From Kitasatospora sp. Root107 (GTDB lineage Bacteria > Actinomycetota > Actinomycetes > Streptomycetales > Streptomycetaceae): 39,000 nucleotides of DNA. The translations under genes were made by a program, and so were the position numbers. The notes beneath the pieces are model-generated. The model saw only the letters and a program-made list of their open reading frames with translations, searched no databases and was not told the DNA's origin. The stretch spans positions 95,470-134,469 of the forward strand of contig NZ_LMCT01000004.1 in NCBI RefSeq assembly GCF_001424875.1, read 5' to 3'. Each line of letters starts with the position of its first letter. The stretch's first letter is position 1. Positions 4,928 to 25,518 of this stretch are shown piece after piece.

Positions 4928-7497
4928 GCCGCGTTGATCGCCCGCAGGATGTTCAGGCGGGCTGCCCGCCGGGCCGGCCAGACCGCTGCCAGCACCCCGA
5001 TCGCCAGGCTGAGCAGCAGGAACAGGCCGAGCCGCGCCCAGGGCAGCACGATCTCGTACTGCGGGAGCGAGGATTTGCTGAGGCTTCCGCACGCCCAGGC
5101 CAGGAAGATGCCCGTGCCGATGCCCAGGGCTGCGCCGAACAGCGAGATCACCACCGATTCCAGGCGCACCATCTGCCGGACGCCCCTGGTGCCGAGGCCG
5201 ATCGCGCGCAGCAGCCCGATCTCCCGGGTCCGCTCGAAGACCGACATGGCCAGGGTGTTGACGACGCCGAACACCGCGATGACGACGGTCATGCCGAGCA
5301 GGCCGTACATCATGTTGAGCATCGCACCGATCTCGCCGGACTGAGCCTTCGTCAACTGCTCCTGGTTCTGCACCTGGAGGAGTGGGCTGTTGCCCAGGGC
5401 CGCGCGGATGTCCTGGTCGAGGCCGTTCGGGTGCCGGCCGGACGCGGCCTTGACCAGGATGCTTTCGAGCCTCCCGCCGTTCGCGTACGGCAGGACCTCG
5501 TCCATGGTGCCAAGGGCGCTGCCGACGGCGCGGGTCTGCTGGTAGACACCCACGACGGTCAGCGCTTTCTCGCCGTGGCCGTAGCCCACCGTGCCCTGGA
5601 AGGTGTCGCCCTTCGCCAGGCCGGTGGCCTTGGCCAGCTTGTCGGAGAGCGCGACCTTGCCGGGGCCGAGATCTGCGAGCGAGCCGCTGCTGAACTTCAG
5701 GTCGGAGACCCTGCCGAGCCGCTGCGGGTCCGCACCGGTGAGCGTGGCGAACTCGCCCCGCGCCCCCAGGGTCGAGGAGGCGAGGGGCACCGACTCCGCG
5801 ACGCCCGGGACTTCGGCGACCTTCGTGCCGAGTGCGGGGTCGATGCCGCCGGAGCCGGTGTTGGACACCTGGTAGTCCGCGGTCAGGCCGGCTACTGCCG
5901 CCGCCTTGAGCGCGGCGTTCATGGAGCTGCCGGTCACGCTCAGGCCCGTGATCAGGGTGAGCCCGATCATCAGGGCCGAGGCGGTGGCGGCGGTGCGGCG
6001 CGGGTTGCGCAGCGCGTTCTCCTCGGCGAGCTTGCCGCTGACGCCGAAGAACCGGGTGGTGACCGCCCCCGCGAGCCGGATCAGCGGGCGGGACAGCAGC
6101 GGCGCGATCACGATCATGCCGGTCAACGTGAGCACGGAGCCGAGTCCGGCGGCCTTCAGGTTGGAGTCGGCCCCGTTCGTCTGAGTGGAGACGTACAGCA
6201 GGACGAGGACACCAAGGCCGGTGAGCAGCACACCGAGGCTGTTGCGGAGCACCAGGCCGCGCCTGGGCGGCGTCTGGTCGACGGTGGTCAGCGCCTCCAC
6301 CGGTGCGACCTTCGCGGCCCTGCGGGACGGGAGCCAGGCGGCGAGCACGGTGACGCCGACGCCGACCAGGAGGGACCGGACGAGCGCGTCCGGGGAGATC
6401 ACCAGCGGGCCGTCGGGCAGGCCCGCGCCGCTCGCGTTGAGGAGTGGCCTGAGGGCGGTCGCGATACCGATTCCGAGCCCGATGCCGGCTGCTGAGGCGC
6501 CAAGTCCGAGCAGCCCGGCCTCGGCGAGGACCGCGCGGACTACCTGGCGGCGGGAGGCTCCCACGGCACGCAGCAGCGCGGTCTCCCGGCTTCGCTGGGC
6601 GATCAGCATGGTGAAGGTGTTGGCGATGACGAAGGCACCGACGAACAGCGCGATTCCGGCGAAGGCCAGGAGCATCCGGGTGAGCGCCTTGGTGCTCTCG
6701 GCGATCCGCTCCGCCTGCTCGTGCGCGAGCTGGGCTCCGCTGGTGACCGTGATGCCCTCGGTGGGCAGCAGCGCGCGGATCCTGCCGGTGAGCTCCTGGT
6801 TGTCGGTGCCGGGTGCGGAGCCGACGGCCAGCTCGTCGAACCGGCCCGCCTGCAGGAAGAGTTGCTGTGCGGTGCCGGTGTCGAAGAGCGCGAGGCTGCC
6901 GCCCGCGGTCACGCGCGGGTCGTCGGTGTCGACGGTGCCGACCAGCTTCTTGGTGAGTGCGGGGCCTGTGGTGGCGAAGCGGACGGAGTCACCGATGGCG
7001 TAGCCGGCCTTCTCGGCGGTACGCCGGTCCAGGGCCAGCTCTCCGCCGGCGGTGGGGCCGCGTCCGGCGCTGACCGGGAAACGGCTGTCCCGGTCCGAAC
7101 CCGGGGCGTCCGGTGAGTAGTTGGCCGCCAGGTTCTGCCAGCTGTTGTCGGCGTTCAGCGGTCGGCCGTCCTTGGCCGCCAAGGTGGCGGTGCCGTTGAC
7201 GGTGGGGTGCACGGACGTGACGCCGGGCAGGGCACGGACCCGGTCGGCGAGCTCGTCGGTGAGCGCCGTGGACCGGCCGTCGTCCGCCTCGCTGTCGGAG
7301 TTCCGCTGGGACGTGGCCTGTACGGAGACCGCGACGTCCTTGAGGTTCTTGGCGGAGGCGCCGCGAAGGGCATGGGTGACGGTGTCACCGAAGACGAGCG
7401 TGCCAAAGACGAAGGCGACGCCGAGCATGATCGCGAGGGCGGTCATGACCAGGCGGCCTCGGTGCGCGAAGACGTTGCGCAGGGCTGTATGCAGCAT
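4924..7497 (-). CDS. ABC transporter permease, MacB/FtsX type (two FtsX domains)
   Basis: The 857-residue protein has the double FtsX layout. TM1 is at about 16-40 (VMTALAIMLGVAFVFGTLVFGDT), then a large extracellular MacB periplasmic-core-like domain, a three-helix block at about 275-395 with the motif RSRETALLRAVGASRRQ, two further helices near 420-475, a second TM plus extracellular domain from about 505, and a final three-helix block with ERTREIGLLRAIGLGTRG. The ERTREIGLLRA-type cytoplasmic loops are where the ATPase docks. Such transporters export lipids, peptides or drugs, or act as mechanotransmitters; the substrate is not evident. It follows its ATPase after 58 bp. The start has no strong ribosome binding site but its MLHTALRNVFAH N-terminus is typical. 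Confidence 0.9.
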   Translation of the reverse strand: MLHTALRNVFAHRGRLVMTALAIMLGVAFVFGTLVFGDTVTHALRGASAKNLKDVAVSVQATSQRNSDSEADDGRSTALTDELADRVRALPGVTSVHPTVNGTATLAAKDGRPLNADNSWQNLAANYSPDAPGSDRDSRFPVSAGRGPTAGGELALDRRTAEKAGYAIGDSVRFATTGPALTKKLVGTVDTDDPRVTAGGSLALFDTGTAQQLFLQAGRFDELAVGSAPGTDNQELTGRIRALLPTEGITVTSGAQLAHEQAERIAESTKALTRMLLAFAGIALFVGAFVIANTFTMLIAQRSRETALLRAVGASRRQVVRAVLAEAGLLGLGASAAGIGLGIGIATALRPLLNASGAGLPDGPLVISPDALVRSLLVGVGVTVLAAWLPSRRAAKVAPVEALTTVDQTPPRRGLVLRNSLGVLLTGLGVLVLLYVSTQTNGADSNLKAAGLGSVLTLTGMIVIAPLLSRPLIRLAGAVTTRFFGVSGKLAEENALRNPRRTAATASALMIGLTLITGLSVTGSSMNAALKAAAVAGLTADYQVSNTGSGGIDPALGTKVAEVPGVAESVPLASSTLGARGEFATLTGADPQRLGRVSDLKFSSGSLADLGPGKVALSDKLAKATGLAKGDTFQGTVGYGHGEKALTVVGVYQQTRAVGSALGTMDEVLPYANGGRLESILVKAASGRHPNGLDQDIRAALGNSPLLQVQNQEQLTKAQSGEIGAMLNMMYGLLGMTVVIAVFGVVNTLAMSVFERTREIGLLRAIGLGTRGVRQMVRLESVVISLFGAALGIGTGIFLAWACGSLSKSSLPQYEIVLPWARLGLFLLLSLAIGVLAAVWPARRAARLNILRAINAA

Positions 7498-17220: not shown

Positions 17221-20200
17221 CTACTCCGTCGCGGTCTCCACCTCCAGCGCCGCGTCCCGGACGTGGGACCGGGTGCCGGCGCAGGGCCCGCAGTACCGCC
17301 CGCCACTCGGCGGGCCAGCCGAGCTGCGGGCCGAGGCCGACCAGCAGGCCGACCGCCAGCAGGCCGGTCGCCGACTCTCCTTCACCGCAGAGCTGTTCCG
17401 CCGCCGAAAGGACCGGGTCGGTCGCCTCCGGCAGGCGGTCCCGGCCGAGCCGTGTGCTCAGTCGGCGGGCGGCGGAGGCGGCCAGCGCGGGGCGGTCGGC
17501 AGCGGCCTCGCCCAGCTCGCGCAGCTGGACCGTCAGCGTCCCGGCCGCCGGATCGACCAGCCCGAGCAGTAGGTCTACCCGGAGGGCGGGCTGCTCGGCC
17601 AGCAGCTCGGCCAGGCCGGTCAGGTTGGCCCGGATCCACGGCTGGTCGGGCCGTGGCAGCCCGCCGAGCAGGACGGTCAGCCGCTGCCGGGCGGGCAGGT
17701 CGCGGTCGGCCAACGCCTCGGACTCCCCGGCCCGGACGCTCGCCAGCAGCCCGGTGACCGTGCGGTGCAGCACGCTGCCCGGGGCGGTGCCGCCGAGCGG
17801 GTGCGGCAGATCCTGGCCGGCCAGTGTGGCCACGGCGTCGACGGCAGCCCGCCAGGTGTGGCGGTTCGTCAGATCGGTGACCAGCGTGGGTAGGACCTCG
17901 GCCGTCTCGGGTGCGAACCGTGCCCAGGTGGGCAGTTGGCCGAGTGCGGCCACGGCTGCTTCGGGATGGTCGGTGCGGCAGACCTGGCCGACCAGCCGGG
18001 CGAACCGGGCCTGGTGGGCCTCGGCCAGCTGCCACGGCCGGGTCCGCAGCAGCGCCGTACCGGTGTGCGGTGAATCGGTGGCGGCCGCGCCGAACAGGGC
18101 CCAGATCTCCTCGCGTTGGAGCAGTCCTGATCCGGCCGCGATCACGGCTGCTTGGACGTCCGGGTGCTGACCGGGTGCCAGATAGGCGGTCCGGAGCAGC
18201 TCGGCGGCCTGCTGCGGGGGCAGGTACCCGGCCGCCAGCCGGACCGCCTCCTTACGAGTGGTGATCTTGCCGCCGGTCAGCAACCCGTCGAGCTGCTCGG
18301 CGAGTTGACGAGGCGTCGCGAACCGGGCGGCTCGGGAGGCCGCGTACACCGCGACCCTGGCCCGGTCGCCGTCGGCGTGCGCGAGCAGCACCGTCAGCTC
18401 CCGGGCCGGGTCGTCGGCCCAGGCCAGTGCGGCGAGGGCGACCTCGGTCAGTACCACCTCGTCGGACTCCAGGTACTCCAGGGCGAGTTGGCGCCCGAAC
18501 AGCGGGATGCTGCGCGCGGCCCTGATCGCGGCGGCTCGGGAGTGGGTGGCCTGGGTGGTGTCGGCGGCCGCCCGCTCGGCCAGCCGGGCGGCTGCGGCCT
18601 GCTGCCGGGGCTGCCAGCGGTGTGCGTACGTGAGATCCGGCAGCCGTGGCCGGGTGCCGGGCTTGAGGAAGCGTCCGTACGGTGGCGTGTCGGCCAGCAG
18701 CGGGTCGAGCAGGTCGGTCCTGCGGGTGGTCAACACGGCCTGCACGGTATGGAGTACGACCGCTGAGGGCTCGAGCGCGATGATCTGCTCGACCCGCTCC
18801 TCCCTGGTCCGGGGGGCCGCCAGCCAGAGTCCGGCGGCGGTGCCGAACGCGGCGTCCTTGCTGTGGTGCAGGGCGCGGGCCAGCAGGTCCTGGAGTTCGG
18901 GCATGCCGTGCGCCCGGTCGCCGAGCGAGTGGGTGAGGGCGAACAACAGCCGGTGGTCGGCGACTGCCGCGGCCTTCTCCAGCCACGGGCGCAGCGCGGC
19001 AAGTACCTGGTGCTCCTGGCCCCGGCGCAGGGTGTGCTGAAGGGCGCCCAGGCTGATGCTGCCGCGCTGGCCGGTGATCCGTTCCAGCGCCGCCAACGCC
19101 CAGGCCAGCAAAGGGGATTCCGGCACGGTGGCGTGCTCCCGGAGGATGCCCACGGCCAGCTTGGTGACCGCCTGCCTGGTCCGGTACGAGCCGTCCCTGG
19201 CCTCCAGTGCGTCGGTGACCACCCGGTCGAGTGCACCGACGTCCGCCGGGCCGAACAGCCCGGGGTGCAGCTCGGCCAGCGCGGCGAGCGCGGGTGCCCG
19301 GACCGGGTCCTGCTCGTTGCGCAACCGCTCGCACAGGGCGAGCAGTCGGCCGATCTCGGCCGGGTCGCCGGACCGGCCCGCGTTGGTGATCAGCAGCGGC
19401 CAGGCGAGCGCCCGGTCGGCCGCCTCGGGACGCCGGGTGGCGGCCAGCAGCTCGGCTCCCGCCTCGGCCACCGGCAGCTGGGCCAGCACCGGCAGTACGG
19501 TGTGCCAGTCCCGCCCGGGCCGCCGACAGCCGCTCGAGCTGGGCCCTGGCCCGCGCCCAGCGGTGCTCGCGCGGCAGCAGCTCAGGCGCGGCGAAGCTCT
19601 CGGTGTCCAGCCCCTCGGTCGCGGCGTCGAAGAACGCCGCTCGGCGGCTCGGCGGCAGCTCCTTGAGCAACTGCCGGAACTCTCGGGGCTGTTGCTCGAA
19701 CCAGCGGCGGCCCAGTGCGGTCAGCGAGGCGGACCCGGCCTGCGCGAGGCGACGCAGTACGGAGCGGGCGCAGGCGCCGGCGAGCGGCTGGACGGCGCGT
19801 TCGGGGGCAAGCAGCCAGCGGATCACCCGCTCGGGATCCAGTGCGACCAGCGGGCCCAACTGATGCTGCAGATGGAAGGGGAGCCGGGCCGGGCCGTACT
19901 GCTCCAGCAGCTCGAGCACCCGCTCGGGGTGGCGCTCCACGGTGACGGCCAGTGCGTCGGCGTGCTGATCCCACCATTGCGAGCGCAACTCCGCTGTACG
20001 GTACTGGAGTTGGTGCGCGGCGTAGTCCAGCAGCACGGTCGGGTGGCGGCGGGCGAGCGCCGGCAGGTTGCTCGCGGCATGGGCCAGTTCCGGCAGCAGC
20101 CGGGTGGCGAACTCCGCCGAGCAGGCCGGCAGCAATCGGGCCGCCTCTGACTCGCCCCAGCCGGACCGGAGTTCGACCACCAGCCGCTCGGCCAGCGCGG

Positions 20201-20561
20201 TCCGGCGCCCGGCCAGCACCGCCTTGGCGAGCTGCTGCCGCACCACGGCGGAGGCGCCGCCGTATGCGGCTTCGATGGCCTGGTCCGGCACCGGCAGTAC
20301 CTGGACGGCCCGCAGGGCGTACCCCCGGACCACCTGGTCCGGGTCGGTCAGCCTGTTGGCCAGCCACTCGGTGCGCCGTCCGGCCAGCGCGGCGAGCCCG
20401 GCCAACCGACGCTCGTACGGGCCGCGCCGGTCCAGGTCGGCCAGCAGGTCGTCCAGTTGGCGCTCGGTCAGGGAGCGGGCGAGCAGGGCGACGGTCGGGG
20501 CCACCTGCGGAAAGGGGAGCCGGTCGAGGGAGCGGAGCAGCTGCTCAGAGGGGTGGGACAT
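17221..20561 (-). pseudogene. Giant helical-repeat (HEAT-like) protein gene with two apparent frameshifts
   Basis: The frame opens at the ATG at 20561 (MSHPSEQLLRSLDRLPFPQV) and reads good Leu/Ala/Arg-rich helical repeats to about 19520. It then degenerates. Sense resumes in the +1 frame with RDWHTVLPVLAQLPVAEAG and runs to about 17272. There a second shift is needed: the current frame ends at 17201 in low-quality sequence, while the next frame gives HVRDAALEVETATE and a TAG at 17221-17223. Removing one base in the GGGCCC run near 19514-19519 and one at 17266-17272 yields a continuous protein of about 1,112 residues. Repeated helix pairs resemble HEAT/ARM solenoids. I do not recognise a named family. 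It may be a decaying gene or carry sequence errors. A CAGAAT -10 box at 20574-20569 suggests leaderless transcription. Confidence 0.6.
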
Positions 20562-20687
20562 GAGCCGGATTCTGCCCCAGGGCGGTGGGGGCGGGCCAAC
20601 CAAAAAATTGGGGCGAGCCGGAGCGGGCCCGGCTGCCATCATGACCGCTTCGGCAGCGGACCGATGCGGCAGACGGAGGAGACGGGC

Positions 20688-21338
20688 ATGATCAACGTTG
20701 GAGCGGTGGCGGGGATCGCCTTGGTGTCGTTCGGGATGGCCCTCACCCCGGGACCGAACCTGATCTACCTGGTCTCCCGGACGGTGCTCCAGGGCCGCCG
20801 GGCCGGGCTGGTCTCGCTGGCCGGGGTCGGGGTGGGCTTCGCGGTCTACCTGGTCGCCGCGACGGCCGGGATCGCCACCGTCTTCGCGTTGGTGCCCGAG
20901 GTCTATCTGACCCTCAAGCTGGCTGGGGCCGGCTACCTGCTCTGGCTGGGCTGGCAGATGGTCCGGCCGGGTGGCGAATCGGTGTTCGCCCCCAAGGAGT
21001 TGGCGCCCGACCGGCCGCGCAAGCTGTTCCTGATGGGCCTGGTGACCTGCCTGCTCAACCCCAAGATCGCCATCCTGTACATCTCGCTGCTGCCGCAGTT
21101 CGTCTCGCCCGAGCAGGGTCAGGTCGCTCTGCAGAGCCTGCTGCTCGGTCTCACCCAGATCACCGTCTGCCTGCTCAGCGACGGCGCCTTCGTCCTGATG
21201 GCCGGTTCGGTCGCGGCCTTCCTGGCCCGCCGCCCGACCTGGCAGCGCCTGCACCGGTACGCGATGGGCACGTTGCTGGCCGGCTTCGCCCTGCGGCTCG
21301 CCGCGGACCGTTCGAAGGCGGTGCTGGCCGCGCCGTGA
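20688..21338 (+). CDS. LysE/RhtB family amino-acid exporter
   Basis: The 216-residue protein has the LysE layout: a first helix ending in the signature MALTPGPNLIYLVSRT, five or six membrane helices in all, and a cytoplasmic loop before NPKIAILYISLLPQFV, another conserved family stretch. Family members export lysine, threonine, homoserine or other small amines; the substrate here is unknown. The ATG follows GGAGGA by 7 nt. It is divergent from the long repeat protein gene across 126 bp that contain an unusual A6/TTGG tract near 20600 but no gene. Confidence 0.92.
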   Translation: MINVGAVAGIALVSFGMALTPGPNLIYLVSRTVLQGRRAGLVSLAGVGVGFAVYLVAATAGIATVFALVPEVYLTLKLAGAGYLLWLGWQMVRPGGESVFAPKELAPDRPRKLFLMGLVTCLLNPKIAILYISLLPQFVSPEQGQVALQSLLLGLTQITVCLLSDGAFVLMAGSVAAFLARRPTWQRLHRYAMGTLLAGFALRLAADRSKAVLAAP

Positions 21339-21377
21339 ACGGCTGACATGATGGCGGGCCGAAGCTGGAGGGGGATC

Positions 21378-22709
21378 ATGGACGAGTCGACCGCCCGGGG
21401 CATGCGATACCTGCTGGGGCTGGCCGGGGCGAGCGGCGGCCCGTGGATCTGCACGCGGCTGGGAATCGCTCCGGAGGGGCCGGTGGGGCCGGAGGTGAAG
21501 GATGGGAACTCGGTCGCCTGGGCCGTCCGAACGGTGCCGCAGGTCCGGGTCTGGATGCTGCAACAGGACGATTCCGAAGCGAACCGGATGCTCTGCCGGA
21601 TGGGTCTGCTGTCCGCAGGGGTGACCGAGGACGTCCGCAGCGGGCTGCTGTTCGGCCCAGGGCGACAGGAAGCGGTCCCGGCCGGCCCGACGCAGCGGTC
21701 GGAGCTTCCGGTGACGTCAGGACTGATCCGACGGCTCCGGAAGGCCGAAGGCCGGGGTGCACTCGCGGACGCCCGGGCAGCCGCAGAGGAACTGCGGCGC
21801 GCCGACTGGCCGCTGGTGGCGGCCGCTCACCGGGAACACCCCTACCCCGGCTACGCACGCTGGGCACTGGCCGAACAGGTGGACTGCCCGGCGGAGTTGC
21901 GGGCCGAGTTCGGTACGCACCCCAAGTTCGAGCACCGGCTGCGGCAGGCCGGACTGACCGGCGCTCTGGTCGACTGCCTGACGACCAGTACCGCGCGGGA
22001 CGCCCTCCGGGTGCTCGGCCTCGGGCGGGTGGCCTTCCGGGCTCGGCTGGCCGAATCGGAGGACATCCTCCGGCCTTTGGTGGAACGTGAGTTGGGTGGG
22101 AACGAGGCAGCCTGGGCCGTATTGGCCGAACTGCTCCCCAGCTTCGCCGGGACTCTCTCGGAGCTGATCACCACTGCCGCAGCGATCGCGAGCCCGGGAC
22201 CCGAACCCGCGCCGGAGCGCCGGCCGGTGGCCGAGCCGATGGAGGTACCCCTGCCGGTGTCCCCGGCTCCGGTCGAGCACACCGTGCGACGTCGCCCGGT
22301 GCCGCCCGCTCCGGTCGAGCCGAGCTTCTGGAAGGTGCTGACCAGCTTCCTCCGGCGGATCACCGGGAGTCCGACGGCCGCCGCCCCGGCGCCCGAGCGC
22401 CGACAGGCCGTCAGGACACCCGTGGTCCGCCGTCCGGTGATCGAGCTCGGGGAGATCGCTGCCGATCCGGAGGGGTGGGAGGACCGGCTGCGCCGTGCGG
22501 CCGCGCACCCTGGCGAGGGCGGCGACGACATCCGAGCGGTTCACCAGGCTCTCACCGTCGCCCGGTTGGATCAGCTGCGGCGGTGCAGACGGGTGGCACT
22601 GCGGTTGGTGGTGTGGTTGCCGCCGAAGCAGCGCGCGAGCTTCCTGGTCCGGGTCTCCGTCGAGCGGCAGCGGTTCTGGATCGCGCTGTTCGCCAAGCTG
22701 CCGCGCTGA
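21378..22709 (+). CDS. Unknown protein with proline-rich linker
   Basis: The 443-residue product starts at an ATG preceded by GGAGGGGG. I do not recognise it. The first 80 residues (RYLLGLAGASGGPW to RMLCRMGLLSAGVTEDVRSGLLFGPG) look like a folded helical unit. A helical middle follows with a segment (HREHPYPGYARWALAEQ, CPAELRAEFGTHPKF) resembling short repeats of small solenoid proteins. A Pro/Ala/Arg linker occupies about 270-375, and a basic helical domain of about 70 residues ends the protein. No signal peptide or membrane helix is seen. It starts 39 nt after the LysE gene and may share its transcript. Confidence 0.7.
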   Translation: MDESTARGMRYLLGLAGASGGPWICTRLGIAPEGPVGPEVKDGNSVAWAVRTVPQVRVWMLQQDDSEANRMLCRMGLLSAGVTEDVRSGLLFGPGRQEAVPAGPTQRSELPVTSGLIRRLRKAEGRGALADARAAAEELRRADWPLVAAAHREHPYPGYARWALAEQVDCPAELRAEFGTHPKFEHRLRQAGLTGALVDCLTTSTARDALRVLGLGRVAFRARLAESEDILRPLVERELGGNEAAWAVLAELLPSFAGTLSELITTAAAIASPGPEPAPERRPVAEPMEVPLPVSPAPVEHTVRRRPVPPAPVEPSFWKVLTSFLRRITGSPTAAAPAPERRQAVRTPVVRRPVIELGEIAADPEGWEDRLRRAAAHPGEGGDDIRAVHQALTVARLDQLRRCRRVALRLVVWLPPKQRASFLVRVSVERQRFWIALFAKLPR

Positions 22710-22730: not shown

Positions 22731-23843
22731 TCAGGACGGACCTGCGGTGCGGTGCACGCTGAGCACCGCCGCCACATCGGCCGGCACGGCGGGCGGCGGT
22801 ACGGTGGCGGCGAGTTCGTCCAGGCGGCGTCGCACCGTGGTGGCCACGCCCTTGCCGATCACGTAGCGGGTCGGGGTGGCGGCGTGCCGGGCGGCGTCCA
22901 GCAGGAGATGGGCCTCGCGGCTGCGCAGGCCGGTGTTGGCCAGCACCAGGTGCCGGAGGCGGTGTTGGGTGCCCGAGAGCGCCGCGCCGATCGTCCGGGC
23001 GCTCTCGGCGTCGAGCCGGTTGTCGGGCGCCCCGAGGATGCCGGCGGCCTTCACCCGGCCCAGGTCCAGCAGCTCGACGCCCGCCGCTGCGGCGGCCACG
23101 ACCAGCTCGGCCGAGCCGGAGGGGCCGAGCCCCGAGCTGGCCAGCGAGAGCCGGCGCAGTCGGCCGTACGGCGCCGCGCCCAGCGCCCGGGCCAGCACAG
23201 CGGCACCCGAGTCGCCCAGACCGGCGGCGGAGATGTACAGCTCGGCCGTCGCGCCCGCCTCGACCAGCCGGGCCAACTGCCGCGCTCCGTCCGGGCCGAG
23301 AGGGTTGCCGCCGAGGTAGAGCCGCTGGAACGGCGGGCGGCCCGAGGTGACCACGGCGTCGACCAGTGCGGTCAGGGCAGCAGGGGTGAGGCCGGTCTGC
23401 ACCAGGTCGAGGGTGCGCAGTTGCTCGGCGGAGCGGACCAGGTCGGCGGCCGCGCCGCCCAGCGGGTTGCGCTTGAGCCAGAGTGCCTGGACGGTCTGCG
23501 GGGAGGCCCGCAGGTGGTCGGCGATCCGGCAGGCGCCGGTGGTGGTGATGTTGTTGCAGCCGAGGTAGAGCGTCTTGACCTCGGTGGCCAGCGCCCGGGC
23601 GGTGACGGCGGCCGCACCCTGGTCGCCCAACCGGTCGGTGCCGAGCAGCAGATGGTGCACCGGCCCGCGCGGCGGGAGGGACTCCGCGACCAGGGCTGCA
23701 CCGTCCGGGCCGAGGTCCTGCTTGCAGAGGTCGAGCCGCCCGTCGGGCAGTGCGGTGCCGGTGGGGAAGTCGATCCGTTCGGTGGCGGGGTCGCCTGCAC
23801 GCAGCCAGGCGAGCAGCGGGGCCAGATCCGGACGGGTGCTCAC
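22731..23843 (-). CDS. Leucine-rich-repeat protein, ribonuclease-inhibitor type
   Basis: The 370-residue protein consists of about ten repeats of roughly 28 residues with the pattern LxxLxLxxNxLGxxGAxxLA, clearest in VKTLYLGCNNITTTGACRIA and FQRLYLGGNPLGPDGARQLA. This is the RI-like class that forms a protein-binding horseshoe. No enzyme domain, signal peptide or membrane helix is present, so it is probably a cytoplasmic binding or scaffolding protein. Its GTG start overlaps the stop of the upstream zinc-ribbon/SDR gene by 4 nt (GTGA), and GAGG lies just before, so the two proteins are made together in similar amounts and may interact. Confidence 0.85.
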   Translation of the reverse strand: MSTRPDLAPLLAWLRAGDPATERIDFPTGTALPDGRLDLCKQDLGPDGAALVAESLPPRGPVHHLLLGTDRLGDQGAAAVTARALATEVKTLYLGCNNITTTGACRIADHLRASPQTVQALWLKRNPLGGAAADLVRSAEQLRTLDLVQTGLTPAALTALVDAVVTSGRPPFQRLYLGGNPLGPDGARQLARLVEAGATAELYISAAGLGDSGAAVLARALGAAPYGRLRRLSLASSGLGPSGSAELVVAAAAAGVELLDLGRVKAAGILGAPDNRLDAESARTIGAALSGTQHRLRHLVLANTGLRSREAHLLLDAARHAATPTRYVIGKGVATTVRRRLDELAATVPPPAVPADVAAVLSVHRTAGPS

Positions 23844-25198
23844 CAGGCCGCCTCGCGGTAGTCCTTCAGGAAGACGCCGGAGACCGGTGAACCGGCCTCG
23901 CCCCGGACGATCGGGTCGTAGACCCGGGCCGCGCCGTCCACGATGTCGAGCGGGGTGCGGAAGCCGTGGTCGGCCAGCCGGGACTTCTTCGGGGCCGGGT
24001 TCTCGTCGGTGATCCAGCCGGTGTCCACCGCGCACATGTGCACGCCCTGGTCGGCGAGTTCGGCCGCGCTGGTGCGGGTGAGCATGTTGAGGGCGGCCTT
24101 GGCCATGTTGGTGTGCGGGTGGCCGCCGGTCTTGTTGCGGACCTCGAACCTGCCCTCGACGGCGGTGACGTTGACGACGTAGCGGTTCGGGTGCGGGGAG
24201 GCGAGCAGCAGCGGCAGCAGGCGGTCGCAGAGCAGCGCCGGGGCCAGCGAGTTGACCAGCTGGGTCTCCAGCACCTCGGCCGGGTCCAGCTCGCCCAGCC
24301 GGGCCGACCAGGAATTGGCGGGGGCGGTGTCCGGCAGCAGTCCGGCCTCGTCGGCCAACGGGGCGACCTGGCCCGGTATTTCGGGCCCCGTCAGCTCGGT
24401 GGCGGGCCAGGCGGCGGTGAGCGCGGGCATCGGACGGAAACCGGGCGCGAGGGTGACCCGGCTGCCCGGCGGCAGGGTCTCGTGCTCCCCGGCGGCCAGC
24501 AGCGCGTAGGCTTCCGGCGGGCGGCGCAGGGTCTGGGCGGCGTTGTTCACCAGGATGTCGAGCGGGCGGCCGTCGGTGCGCAACTGCTCGCAGAGGCCCA
24601 GCACTTGGCGCGGGTCACGCAGGTCGATGCCGACCACGTCGAGCCGGTCCAGCCACTGTGCGCTGCCCGGGGCGGCCTGGAAGCGGCGCAGGGTGTCGTG
24701 CGGGAAGCGGCTGGTGACGGTCAGTTCGACGCCGTCCCTGAGCATCATCAGGGCGAGCTGGAAGCCGATCTTCACCCGGCCGCCGGTGAGCAGGGCGCGG
24801 CGGCCGCGCAGGTCCGTGGTGAGGGCACGGCGGGTGGTGTTGTCGGCGGCGCAGTCCGGGCAGAGCCGGTGGTAGAAGCTGTCCACCTGCCAGTAGGCCG
24901 CCTTGCAGACGTAGCAGTGCTGGGCACGCCGGAGTTCGCCGAGCGGGGTGGTCGCCGCAGGGGTCGGCAGCGGGGCGTCCTCACGGCGGGTCAGACCGCC
25001 GGTGGCGGTGCTGCCGATCAGCGCGGCGTCCCTGGTGGCGCTTGCCTGACGGCGGCGCTTGCGGCCGTCCCGGACGAACGAGTCGGTACTCCGCTCGACC
25101 CGCAACCGCACCGGATCGTCGAAGGGCAGCTCGCGCAGCCGGCCGAGCGTCAGCTCGAACGCGGCCAGCTCCTGCTGCGTCAACTCGCCCTGTGGCAC
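23840..25198 (-). CDS. Zinc-ribbon/SDR fusion protein lacking classical catalytic residues
   Basis: The 452-residue protein has a charged N-terminal helical region (1-90), a zinc ribbon with Cys95, Cys98, Cys113 and Cys116 (HCYVCKA, then RLCPDCAADN), and a Rossmann SDR domain. The cofactor motif is TGGRVKIG (138-145) and NNAA is at 218-221. Where SDRs have Ser and Tyr-x3-Lys, this protein has Thr345 (NVTAVEG) and Thr363-x3-Lys367 (HTNMAK), so the standard proton-relay Tyr is missing. An insertion of about 80 residues lies between these regions. Related ribbon-plus-SDR proteins exist, and I recall a similar HTNMAK motif in them, so this may be a family trait. The GTG at 25198 follows GGAG by 5 nt and lies only 18 nt from a tRNA-like unit on the same strand. 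Confidence 0.88.
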   Translation of the reverse strand: MPQGELTQQELAAFELTLGRLRELPFDDPVRLRVERSTDSFVRDGRKRRRQASATRDAALIGSTATGGLTRREDAPLPTPAATTPLGELRRAQHCYVCKAAYWQVDSFYHRLCPDCAADNTTRRALTTDLRGRRALLTGGRVKIGFQLALMMLRDGVELTVTSRFPHDTLRRFQAAPGSAQWLDRLDVVGIDLRDPRQVLGLCEQLRTDGRPLDILVNNAAQTLRRPPEAYALLAAGEHETLPPGSRVTLAPGFRPMPALTAAWPATELTGPEIPGQVAPLADEAGLLPDTAPANSWSARLGELDPAEVLETQLVNSLAPALLCDRLLPLLLASPHPNRYVVNVTAVEGRFEVRNKTGGHPHTNMAKAALNMLTRTSAAELADQGVHMCAVDTGWITDENPAPKKSRLADHGFRTPLDIVDGAARVYDPIVRGEAGSPVSGVFLKDYREAAW

Positions 25199-25216
25199 TA
25201 CCTCTCCCACCTCTCG

Positions 25217-25288
25217 GGGTCCCGGCCGGATTCGAACCGGCGTACCCGCCTTGGCAAGGCGGCGCGCCTGCCTCTGCGCTACGGGACC
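25217..25288 (-). tRNA. tRNA-Gly-like gene, anticodon GCC (unit 1)
   Basis: The 72-nt unit folds as a canonical cloverleaf: acceptor GGTCCCG/CGGGACC with seven perfect pairs, U8-A9, D stem GCGC/GCGC, anticodon stem CCGCC/GGCGG with loop TTGCCAA (U33, anticodon GCC, A37), a 4-nt variable region, and T arm GCCGG-TTCGAAT-CCGGC. The discriminator is C, whereas ordinary bacterial glycine tRNAs have U73, and the D loop AGAGGCAG ends in G rather than A21. No CCA is encoded. It starts 4 nt after unit 2 and ends 18 nt before the start codon of the zinc-ribbon/SDR gene, so it probably shares a transcript with both. It may be an orphan or non-ribosomal tRNA. Confidence 0.75.
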
Positions 25289-25292
25289 TGTT

Positions 25293-25365
25293 GCCAAGGG
25301 GCCGGATTCGAACCGGCGTGGACCACCATGCGGTAGTGGCGCGCCTGCCTCTGCGCTACGCCCGG
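25293..25365 (-). tRNA. Degenerate tRNA-like unit 2, anticodon unclear
   Basis: It has the same D-arm string (TAGCGCAGAGGCAGGCGCG) and T arm as unit 1. The anticodon arm CCACT-ACCGCAT-GGTGG would give anticodon CGC but lacks U33; a shorter stem would give ACC instead. In the normal register the acceptor has one C-C mismatch and two G-U pairs. A better pairing is longer: GTTGCC (25370-25365) with GGCAAC (25295-25290). TAAGAT at 25384-25379 could be a -10 box placing the transcript start at that extended stem. It may be a tRNA relic or a tRNA mimic rather than a translating tRNA. Confidence 0.55.
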
Positions 25366-25408
25366 GCAACTGGCGTGGATCTTACCCGGGGCACGGATGA
25401 GGAGGGCT

Positions 25409-25480
25409 GCCCGGGGGCCGGATTCGAACCGGCGTGAGTTGGTTTTGGAGACCACGCGCCTGCCTCTGCGCTACGCCCGG
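25409..25480 (-). tRNA. Degenerate tRNA-like unit 3, Trp-type anticodon loop CCA
   Basis: It shares the D-arm string and T arm with units 1 and 2. Its anticodon loop is CTCCAAA (anticodon CCA, as in tRNA-Trp) on a weak stem TGGT/ACCA with no good fifth pair. The seven-base acceptor has G-G and C-C mismatches, but a shifted, longer stem pairs perfectly over 10 bp (25476-25485 with 25406-25415). TACGAT at 25498-25493 is a possible -10 box that would start transcription at about 25486, at the edge of that stem. A 43-nt spacer separates it from unit 2. Function as a translating tRNA is doubtful. Confidence 0.55.
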
Positions 25481-25518
25481 GCAGCTGCGCCGATCGTAGC
25501 CGGTTCTATGCTGCGGGG

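Follow-up and report, generated by a model that had tools for sequence, protein, structure and literature searches.

A shrunken genomic island combining tRNA mimics, candidate decoys for enzymes that attack the tRNA anticodon arm, with an altered SDR-fold protein

What can tRNA-like RNAs, an SDR-fold protein and a leucine-rich-repeat (LRR) protein have in common? The question is raised by a 39,000-nucleotide stretch of Kitasatospora sp. Root107 DNA, called the window here, whose minus strand carries three tRNA mimics followed by an SDR-fold gene and then by an LRR gene. The RNA features are the following:

25407..25484, minus strand: tRNA-like unit 1, anticodon CCA (Trp type); found by ARAGORN at 25482-25408; 75.3 bits to model R1
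25438..25455, minus strand: anticodon arm of unit 1, loop CTCCAAA identical to the loop of the genome's own tRNA-Trp, weakened stem
25290..25370, minus strand: tRNA-like unit 2, anticodon CGC, mismatched acceptor, partly decayed; found by ARAGORN at 25365-25293; 80.7 bits
25218..25288, minus strand: tRNA-like unit 3, Gly-type anticodon GCC, cloverleaf intact with a 7-bp acceptor; found by ARAGORN at 25288-25216; 91.0 bits
25246..25262, minus strand: anticodon arm of unit 3, loop TTGCCAA identical to the loop of the genome's own tRNA-Gly(GCC)

An earlier note on this DNA had claimed three tRNA-like units on the minus strand. ARAGORN found all three, and the Rfam tRNA model placed two of them above threshold in a scan of the window and recovered all three in a search of the genome (62.2, 33 and 31.7 bits). 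As to their quality, unit 3 proved intact, but the anticodon stem of unit 1 is weak, and unit 2, whose acceptor is mismatched, does not fold as a cloverleaf alone. Once a single bulged C is tolerated, the acceptor of unit 1 (CTGCCCGGG/CCCGGGCAG) pairs over more than 7 bp. The two protein genes, which share a 4-nt overlap, are also on the minus strand:

23840..25198, minus strand: SDR-fold ORF, GTG start at 25198, basic N-terminal helix and zinc ribbon; Pfam adh_short
24851..24916, minus strand: zinc ribbon C95-x2-C98 ... C113-x2-C116, invariant in 38 of 38 aligned relatives
24764..24787, minus strand: altered nucleotide-binding motif TGGRVKIG, from the alignment
24098..24121, minus strand: HPHTNMAK, with Thr replacing the catalytic Tyr, from the alignment
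22731..23843, minus strand: LRR ORF, GTG start at 23843; Pfam LRR_6, with ribonuclease inhibitors as nearest solved structures (1dfj, E 1.5e-13)

The first protein retains a Rossmann SDR fold. Ordinary SDRs carry a TGxxxGxG nucleotide-binding motif, altered here, and the catalytic YxxxK is absent, TNMAK standing in its place in all 38 aligned sequences. We predict that the protein is not an ordinary working SDR. The Pfam assignment, the invariant cysteines and the Thr at the Tyr site agree with the initial description of a zinc-ribbon SDR without its catalytic tyrosine, as do the ORF coordinates and LRR_6 with that of an LRR protein overlapping it by 4 nt. LRR proteins bind many kinds of partner.

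Complete islands, as seen in relatives, encode three more proteins, namely a MoxR-type AAA+ ATPase, a DUF2201 metallopeptidase/vWA protein and F8, which is helical, and they often hold a further tRNA-like unit as well. The ATPase is paired with the vWA protein in 28 of 28 complete islands, and this pair is absent from the window. On the other strand, we found what is, as judged by comparison with a locus that carries both genes (L038), a scar of the island's other half:

21348..22709, plus strand: ORF in which the N-terminal part of F8 (residues 1 to about 340) runs in frame into the C-terminal 106 residues of the MoxR ATPase

Beyond this fused tail the MoxR ATPase is missing from the window, as is the vWA protein, whose gene was not found in the window's genome either. 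The window locus is a shrunken copy that keeps only the half with the putative decoys, the SDR and the LRR protein. No nuclease and no ligase family was found among the scanned island proteins. PADLOC models did not match the SDR, the LRR protein, the window ORF, the vWA protein or F8, and MoxR gave six short matches, the best (E 5.9e-7) over 41 residues.

The linkage of units and SDR in other genomes, whose absence had been named beforehand as refuting, was found: units go with 60 of the 95 SDRs of the window-SDR clade, often with an LRR gene, versus 0 of 70 ordinary paralogues. Within the clade, units accompany 28 of 28 MoxR-vWA islands and 26 of 26 LRR-bearing loci; such count statistics overstate certainty because related units are not independent, and in a tree-based test the MoxR-unit and LRR-unit associations were not significant (median p 0.5 and 1). 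The LRR protein, proposed earlier as a part of the system, is thus linked with units wherever it occurs among these loci but optional, being present at only 26 of the 95. The SDR persists without units, since 35 of the 95 show none. The unit-SDR island recurs in Kutzneria, Lentzea, Amycolatopsis, Actinospica, Murinocardiopsis and Kibdelosporangium, and in Micromonospora units adjoin an SDR of 47%.

The sample is the fetched part of the listed SDR relatives. The count of 95 omits identical copies, SDR matches under 900 nt (the fragments L166, L168 and L169, and also L167) and the second SDR of L304 (47%, two units alongside). L167 has one unit; its SDR match came in two pieces, but the gene is probably intact, since a single open frame of 502 residues spans it, insert included. 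Three of the 60 unit-positive loci (L044, L061 and L199) rest only on units below 40 nhmmer bits; L198, with only 145 nt upstream, was scored as without units, and so were L057 and L090, despite weak covariance-model hits before the SDR. Island gene counts are lower bounds because eight loci span less than 11 kb.

One to six units were found per locus, all on the strand of the clade SDR. In many loci little distance separates the end of the last unit from the start of the SDR, and together with the shared strand this would suit cis elements, through which RNase P/Z cuts or folds that sense tRNA would control the amount or the 5' end of the SDR mRNA. We consider this improbable, as units also occur after the SDR, thousands of bases off before F8, or singly in some genomes without a nearby SDR, and as cis elements have no need of anticodon arms matched to those of real tRNAs.

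The stems of the units show more than chance pairing. Among 77 unit relatives, paired cells amounted to 91.8%, versus 74.9% in shuffles, and 16 of 21 stem pairs had both sides changed in at least one sequence. Covariation in these alignments shows a tRNA fold, with the canonical cloverleaf and D/T-loop elbow; the elbow is near-invariant across units and the arms are variable. This covarying RNA family is linked to a fixed protein set. The lone units might have suggested tRNA-derived repeats that spread without function, a highly improbable explanation, against which stand the strong compensatory change in the stems and the position-specific anticodons.

Unit anticodons are concentrated on Trp, Ala, Gly, Ser and Cys, and rare Asp-type units also occur. 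Anticodon arms were compared with those of same-anticodon tRNAs, using as reference the 26 anticodons seen in the window's genome, for the 94 units whose anticodon stem is 5 bp long, whose loop has 7 bases and for which such a tRNA is available; 15 of the 172 distinct units could not be parsed. Loop flanks agreed at 2.88 of 4 positions (random tRNAs 2.36, top of 2000 draws 2.56) and the stem at 6.38 of 10 (random 4.51, highest 5.15), and 29 of the 94 loops were identical. The units are thereby shown to copy the anticodon arms of real tRNAs for Trp, Ala, Gly, Ser and Cys more closely than chance would allow. Copied and position-specific arms are unneeded for a mere dock, which is what the tRNA shape would provide if the units were gating or scaffold RNAs of a ribonucleoprotein, like the Y RNA for Ro60, whose proteins handle damaged or misfolded RNA. 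The near-invariant elbow with variable arms, the vWA and AAA+ proteins of complete islands and the tRNA-like domain of the Y RNA YrlA, described in PMC7790460, all speak for such an arrangement; Pfam, however, listed no TROVE domain for the SDR, LRR, vWA and F8 proteins or for the best 25 of 26 MoxR families, and we regard it as unlikely.

Charging identity was assessed by G3-U70 for Ala and U73 for Gly, found in 2 of 46 and 1 of 19 units, respectively. By the rules for Cys, Ser and Trp in PMC9976931, U73 was found in 0 of 8 Cys units and a long variable arm in 0 of 12 Ser units; for Trp, identity is partly kept, with G73 in 17 of 40 units. Judged by these marks, charging identity is shown to be generally absent, Trp partly excepted. 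Trp, Ala, Gly, Ser and Cys are amino acids of tRNA-dependent ligases, and this clustering would favour charged tRNAs that serve, off the ribosome, as amino-acid donors for a peptide, lipid or wall precursor. With charging identity mostly missing and no ligase family among the scanned proteins, such donation has a small chance of being right, and the peptide or lipid modification with aminoacyl-tRNA suggested in the earlier note is unlikely. Extra ordinary tRNAs for translation under stress would explain the copied arms and the U33 of 114 of the 153 seven-base loops; this is very improbable, the identity being missing, A37 often replaced and the genome already holding 74 tRNA matches, the three units included.

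Because the units copy anticodon arms and mostly lack the marks for amino-acid loading, we propose that they may well be decoys, which would engage enzymes that target real tRNAs at the anticodon arm and thereby protect those tRNAs. We put this forward tentatively, as the best reading at present. A tRNA decoy was among the roles suggested from the start, for a set that lacked MoxR, DUF2201/vWA and F8; these escaped notice because the window copy has lost two of them. The units would be transcribed and stay uncharged, and as competitors of real tRNAs they would draw anticodon nucleases or similar toxins to themselves while resisting the cut. Nucleases with fitting targets would be, for Ser-type units, VapC10 of the symbiont Sinorhizobium meliloti (PMC10945364) and, for Asp-type units, colicin E5. 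The SDR-fold protein would use its basic helix and its zinc ribbon to bind the near-invariant elbow, the attacking ribonuclease would be the ligand of the LRR protein, and engagement of the decoys would call forth a response by the MoxR-vWA-metallopeptidase set.

Cut resistance is predicted from the frequent replacement of the A next to the anticodon. In counts tallied by hand, with two G36 units left out and the pattern spotted first and then tested on the same data, replacement of A37 was seen in 31 of the 43 units having A36 or U36, versus 6 of 49 with C36, and in 24 of 35 Trp and Cys units of the A36/U36 subset. According to PMC7790460, tRNA-Trp and tRNA-Cys are cleaved mostly after position 36, between two adenines, a site that A37 borders, and a tRNA-like Y RNA domain is suggested there as a possible competitive inhibitor of this anticodon nuclease.

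Acceptor pairing exceeded 7 bp in 117 of 156 units versus 11 of 35 ordinary tRNAs and stopped at 7 in 36 of 156 versus 24 of 35 when one bulge was allowed in both sets; without a bulge it stopped at 7 in 41 of 156 versus 24 of 35, with equal medians of 7 pairs (p 0.48). A longer acceptor is thus seen only with the bulge allowed, and even treatment of both sets weakened the claim. The odds of the decoy reading are unchanged by this comparison, since the reading does not depend on acceptor length. The bulged acceptor and the likeness of the LRR protein to ribonuclease inhibitors count on the side of decoys; on the other side are the G73 of 17 of 40 Trp units, the A37 kept in 10 of 28 Trp units and the 35 of 95 SDRs without units.

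A fuller scheme, which we hold to be doubtful, would be a host decoy-tRNA immunity in which unchargeable, cleavage-resistant mimics serve as bait for enzymes that attack the anticodon. An RNA-binding protein derived from an SDR, together with an LRR protein resembling ribonuclease inhibitors, would read the engaged baits and trigger the MoxR-vWA-metallopeptidase response. If true, bacteria would keep a coded repertoire of fake tRNAs for protection; an SDR family that is conserved but altered in its catalytic residues, the LRR protein and a MoxR-vWA branch would gain a function; and one could test directly which enzymes that attack anticodons are encountered by actinobacteria. The decoy principle has been suggested for one Y RNA (PMC7790460); neither a multi-specificity array nor a tRNA-mimic array with SDR, LRR and MoxR-vWA partners was found described in the literature searched. 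Even with the mechanism wrong, a covarying RNA family tied to fixed proteins is a new annotation object, because standard tools call its members ordinary tRNAs.

Among known systems, classical SDR enzymes share the fold and Rossmann core of the island SDR, in which the catalytic Tyr and the glycine motif are replaced and a zinc ribbon and basic helix added. In type III toxin-antitoxin systems, repeated RNA units restrain an endoribonuclease via pseudoknots. The island has repeated RNA units too, and these might likewise restrain a nuclease, but they are tRNA mimics instead of pseudoknots and the scanned proteins include no nuclease. Mycobacterial plasmid arrays, as presented in PMC12803027, also cluster variant tRNA genes and are considered a putative antidefence system; they hold 26 to 27 tRNAs for 19 to 20 amino acids, whereas one to six units were found per island locus, restricted, mostly unchargeable and with fixed protein partners. 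The MoxR-vWA ternary conflict systems, mainly of multicellular prokaryotes, likewise pair an AAA+ MoxR ATPase with a vWA protein, and their third-component classes include VMAP, iSTAND and FtsH (PMC7159879). The island differs by its DUF2201-type vWA protein with a metallopeptidase domain (the word DUF2201 was not found in the text of PMC7159879), by F8 as third protein and by its RNA array. In the RNA repair operon of Ro60/Rsr and YrlA, too, a tRNA-like noncoding RNA is encoded with its protein partner, and YrlA has been proposed to inhibit an anticodon nuclease by competition (PMC7790460). No TROVE domain was found in the scanned island proteins, and the island, unlike that operon, carries several units with different copied anticodon arms and SDR, LRR and MoxR-vWA partners.

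An earlier note had described a minus-strand series in which three tRNA-like units are followed by an SDR-fold gene and a leucine-rich-repeat (LRR) gene, and ORFs together with tRNA and Pfam matches confirmed this arrangement:

First in the series, minus strand: tRNA-like units 1, 2 and 3 (anticodons CCA, CGC and GCC)
23840-25198, minus strand: SDR-fold protein (SDR) with a zinc ribbon and the motif HPHTNMAK
22731-23843, minus strand: LRR protein

The genome containing the window measures 8.17 Mb, and the closest name-bearing proteins to the SDR come from Kitasatospora. General tRNA models detected the units, which ARAGORN labelled as Trp, Ala and Gly tRNAs. A covariance model built on 77 of their relatives gave them 75.3, 80.7 and 91.0 bits, the next best of 150 genome places scored reaching 64.1. 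The units are a separate RNA family, though general tRNA models match them. Unit 3 is intact, while the anticodon stem of unit 1 is weak and the acceptor of unit 2 is mismatched. Elsewhere in the window, a long minus-strand ORF (18252-21563), whose middle resembles a helical-repeat protein, overlaps a plus-strand ORF (20457-21338) judged LysE-like on visual inspection.

The D arm (TAGCGCAGAGGCAGGCGC) and T arm (GCCGGTTCGAATCCGGC) are near-invariant in the family, and the acceptor and anticodon stems vary between units yet stay paired. Paired cells amounted to 91.8% in the unit stems versus 74.9% after shuffling, and both-side changes to 248 versus 82 cells; none of 500 shuffles reached the observed pairing, and every pairing measure dropped when the partner strand was slid. 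These results point to selection for an RNA fold. Acceptor pairing exceeded 7 bp in 117 of 156 units with one bulge allowed and in 84 of 156 with bulges excluded, versus 11 of 35 ordinary tRNAs of the window genome in either case; in the bulge-excluded comparison both medians were 7 pairs.

SDR relatives were searched in 249 genomes of the family, 346 of the phylum and named genomes (best 80 of 490 loci). After identical SDR copies were taken out, units stood beside 60 of the 95 SDRs at 64% identity or above, 2 of 7 at 53.5-64% and 0 of 70 below 53.5%, always on the SDR strand. This last group is a widespread SDR paralogue, for which the surveyed loci revealed no conserved neighbour; it is spread widely through Actinomycetota and also carries the replaced motifs of the SDR (for instance G000:C11:269603-270997, loci L002 and L008). 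Unit-preceded SDRs also occur in Kutzneria, Lentzea, Amycolatopsis, Actinospica, Murinocardiopsis and Kibdelosporangium. At a Micromonospora locus (L304, 2764-4314), left out of the tally, two units lie immediately 5' of a divergent second SDR (47% identity) in which HTSISK replaces HTNMAK, the ordinary paralogue coming next. Lone family units were seen near 6000 in each of L165 and L170-L182, with no SDR match in 12 kb; many of them show TAGCGCAGAGGTCGACGC as a variant D arm, carry the anticodon CCA or pair over a very long acceptor.

Complete islands have three further proteins encoded convergently to SDR and LRR: an ATPase of the MoxR type that bears two P-loop-like motifs, a DUF2201 metallopeptidase/vWA protein (vWA) and a helical protein (F8). 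MoxR and vWA were all-or-none, both in 28 and neither in 67 of the 95 loci, and units were present at all 28 MoxR loci and all 26 LRR loci; a tree-aware pair test was not significant for MoxR or LRR against units. An extra unit lies past vWA on the F8 side in 18 of 28 complete islands, with a 19th case at 10 kb (L188). Matches to vWA were found in 2 of 12 genomes searched, both at island sites, and nowhere in the window's genome. Against L038, the window's 93% relative, ORF 21348-22709 gave a match to F8 covering residues 1 to about 340 and, at its end, one to the last 106 residues of MoxR. The window holds a shrunken island copy; the simplest account is that a deletion removed vWA and most of MoxR, joining the remaining ends. 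In L038, the window's nearest relative, a second, partial F8 start (6143-6565) lies immediately 3' of MoxR, which signals a rearrangement. Three other genomes (L166, L168, L169) hold an SDR fragment with one or two units adjacent. Short MoxR or vWA fragments adjoining SDRs without the full genes, at L048 (rel. 1467-2081), L054 (1381-1479) and L084 (2679-2795), are probably remains of lost island halves. The best SDR tree required 15 changes for units, 8 of them forced by well-supported branches, and 15 for MoxR. Both are scattered and extend to deep branches, a pattern that fits an ancestral island lost repeatedly.

Nearly all parsed units (153/157) have a seven-base anticodon loop. The anticodons were mainly CCA (40), GGC, CGC or TGC (45 together), GCC (18), GCT (13) and GCA (8), and depend on place in the island: CCA accounted for 14 of 19 parsed units in the vWA-F8 interval, 11 of 18 after the SDR and 7 of 97 upstream. 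With the window genome as reference, unit anticodon arms were closer to the same-anticodon tRNA than to random tRNAs, figures that give a direction rather than exact odds because related units are not independent. Some units, as at L075, copy the tRNA-Trp arm identically, and 25 of 46 Ala-type units retain the A32-U38 pair of tRNA-Ala(GGC). The Ala identity mark, G3-U70, was found in 2 of 46 Ala-type units and the Gly mark, U73, in 1 of 19 Gly-type units. Under the Cys, Ser and Trp rules in an excerpt of PMC9976931, U73 occurred in none of 8 Cys-type units, a long variable arm in none of 12 Ser-type units, all of which have a short variable loop, and G73 in 17 of 40 Trp-type units. A base other than A occupied position 37 in 31 of 43 units whose anticodon ends in A or U versus 6 of the 49 units with C36; Fisher's test gave p = 3.5e-9, for a pattern seen first and tested afterwards.

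A scheme in which uncharged tRNA mimics, as decoys or baits, would occupy enzymes attacking the anticodon arms of real tRNAs explains jointly the copied arms, the missing charging marks, the replaced A37, the ribonuclease inhibitor-like LRR and the conflict-type MoxR-vWA pair. For this scheme we infer transcription of the units, binding, an attacking enzyme and a role for each island protein. The literature searches turned up no comparable system, PADLOC returned nothing comparable except short ATPase matches, and in Rfam the units match the general tRNA family only. According to excerpts of the sources, tRNA-attacking VapC toxins cut in the anticodon stem-loop (PMC7180214), and most 5' fragments of Salmonella tRNA-Trp and tRNA-Cys have position 36 as their 3' end, between two adenines; the authors of the latter work suggest the tRNA-like domain of Y RNA as a possible competitive inhibitor of that nuclease (PMC7790460).
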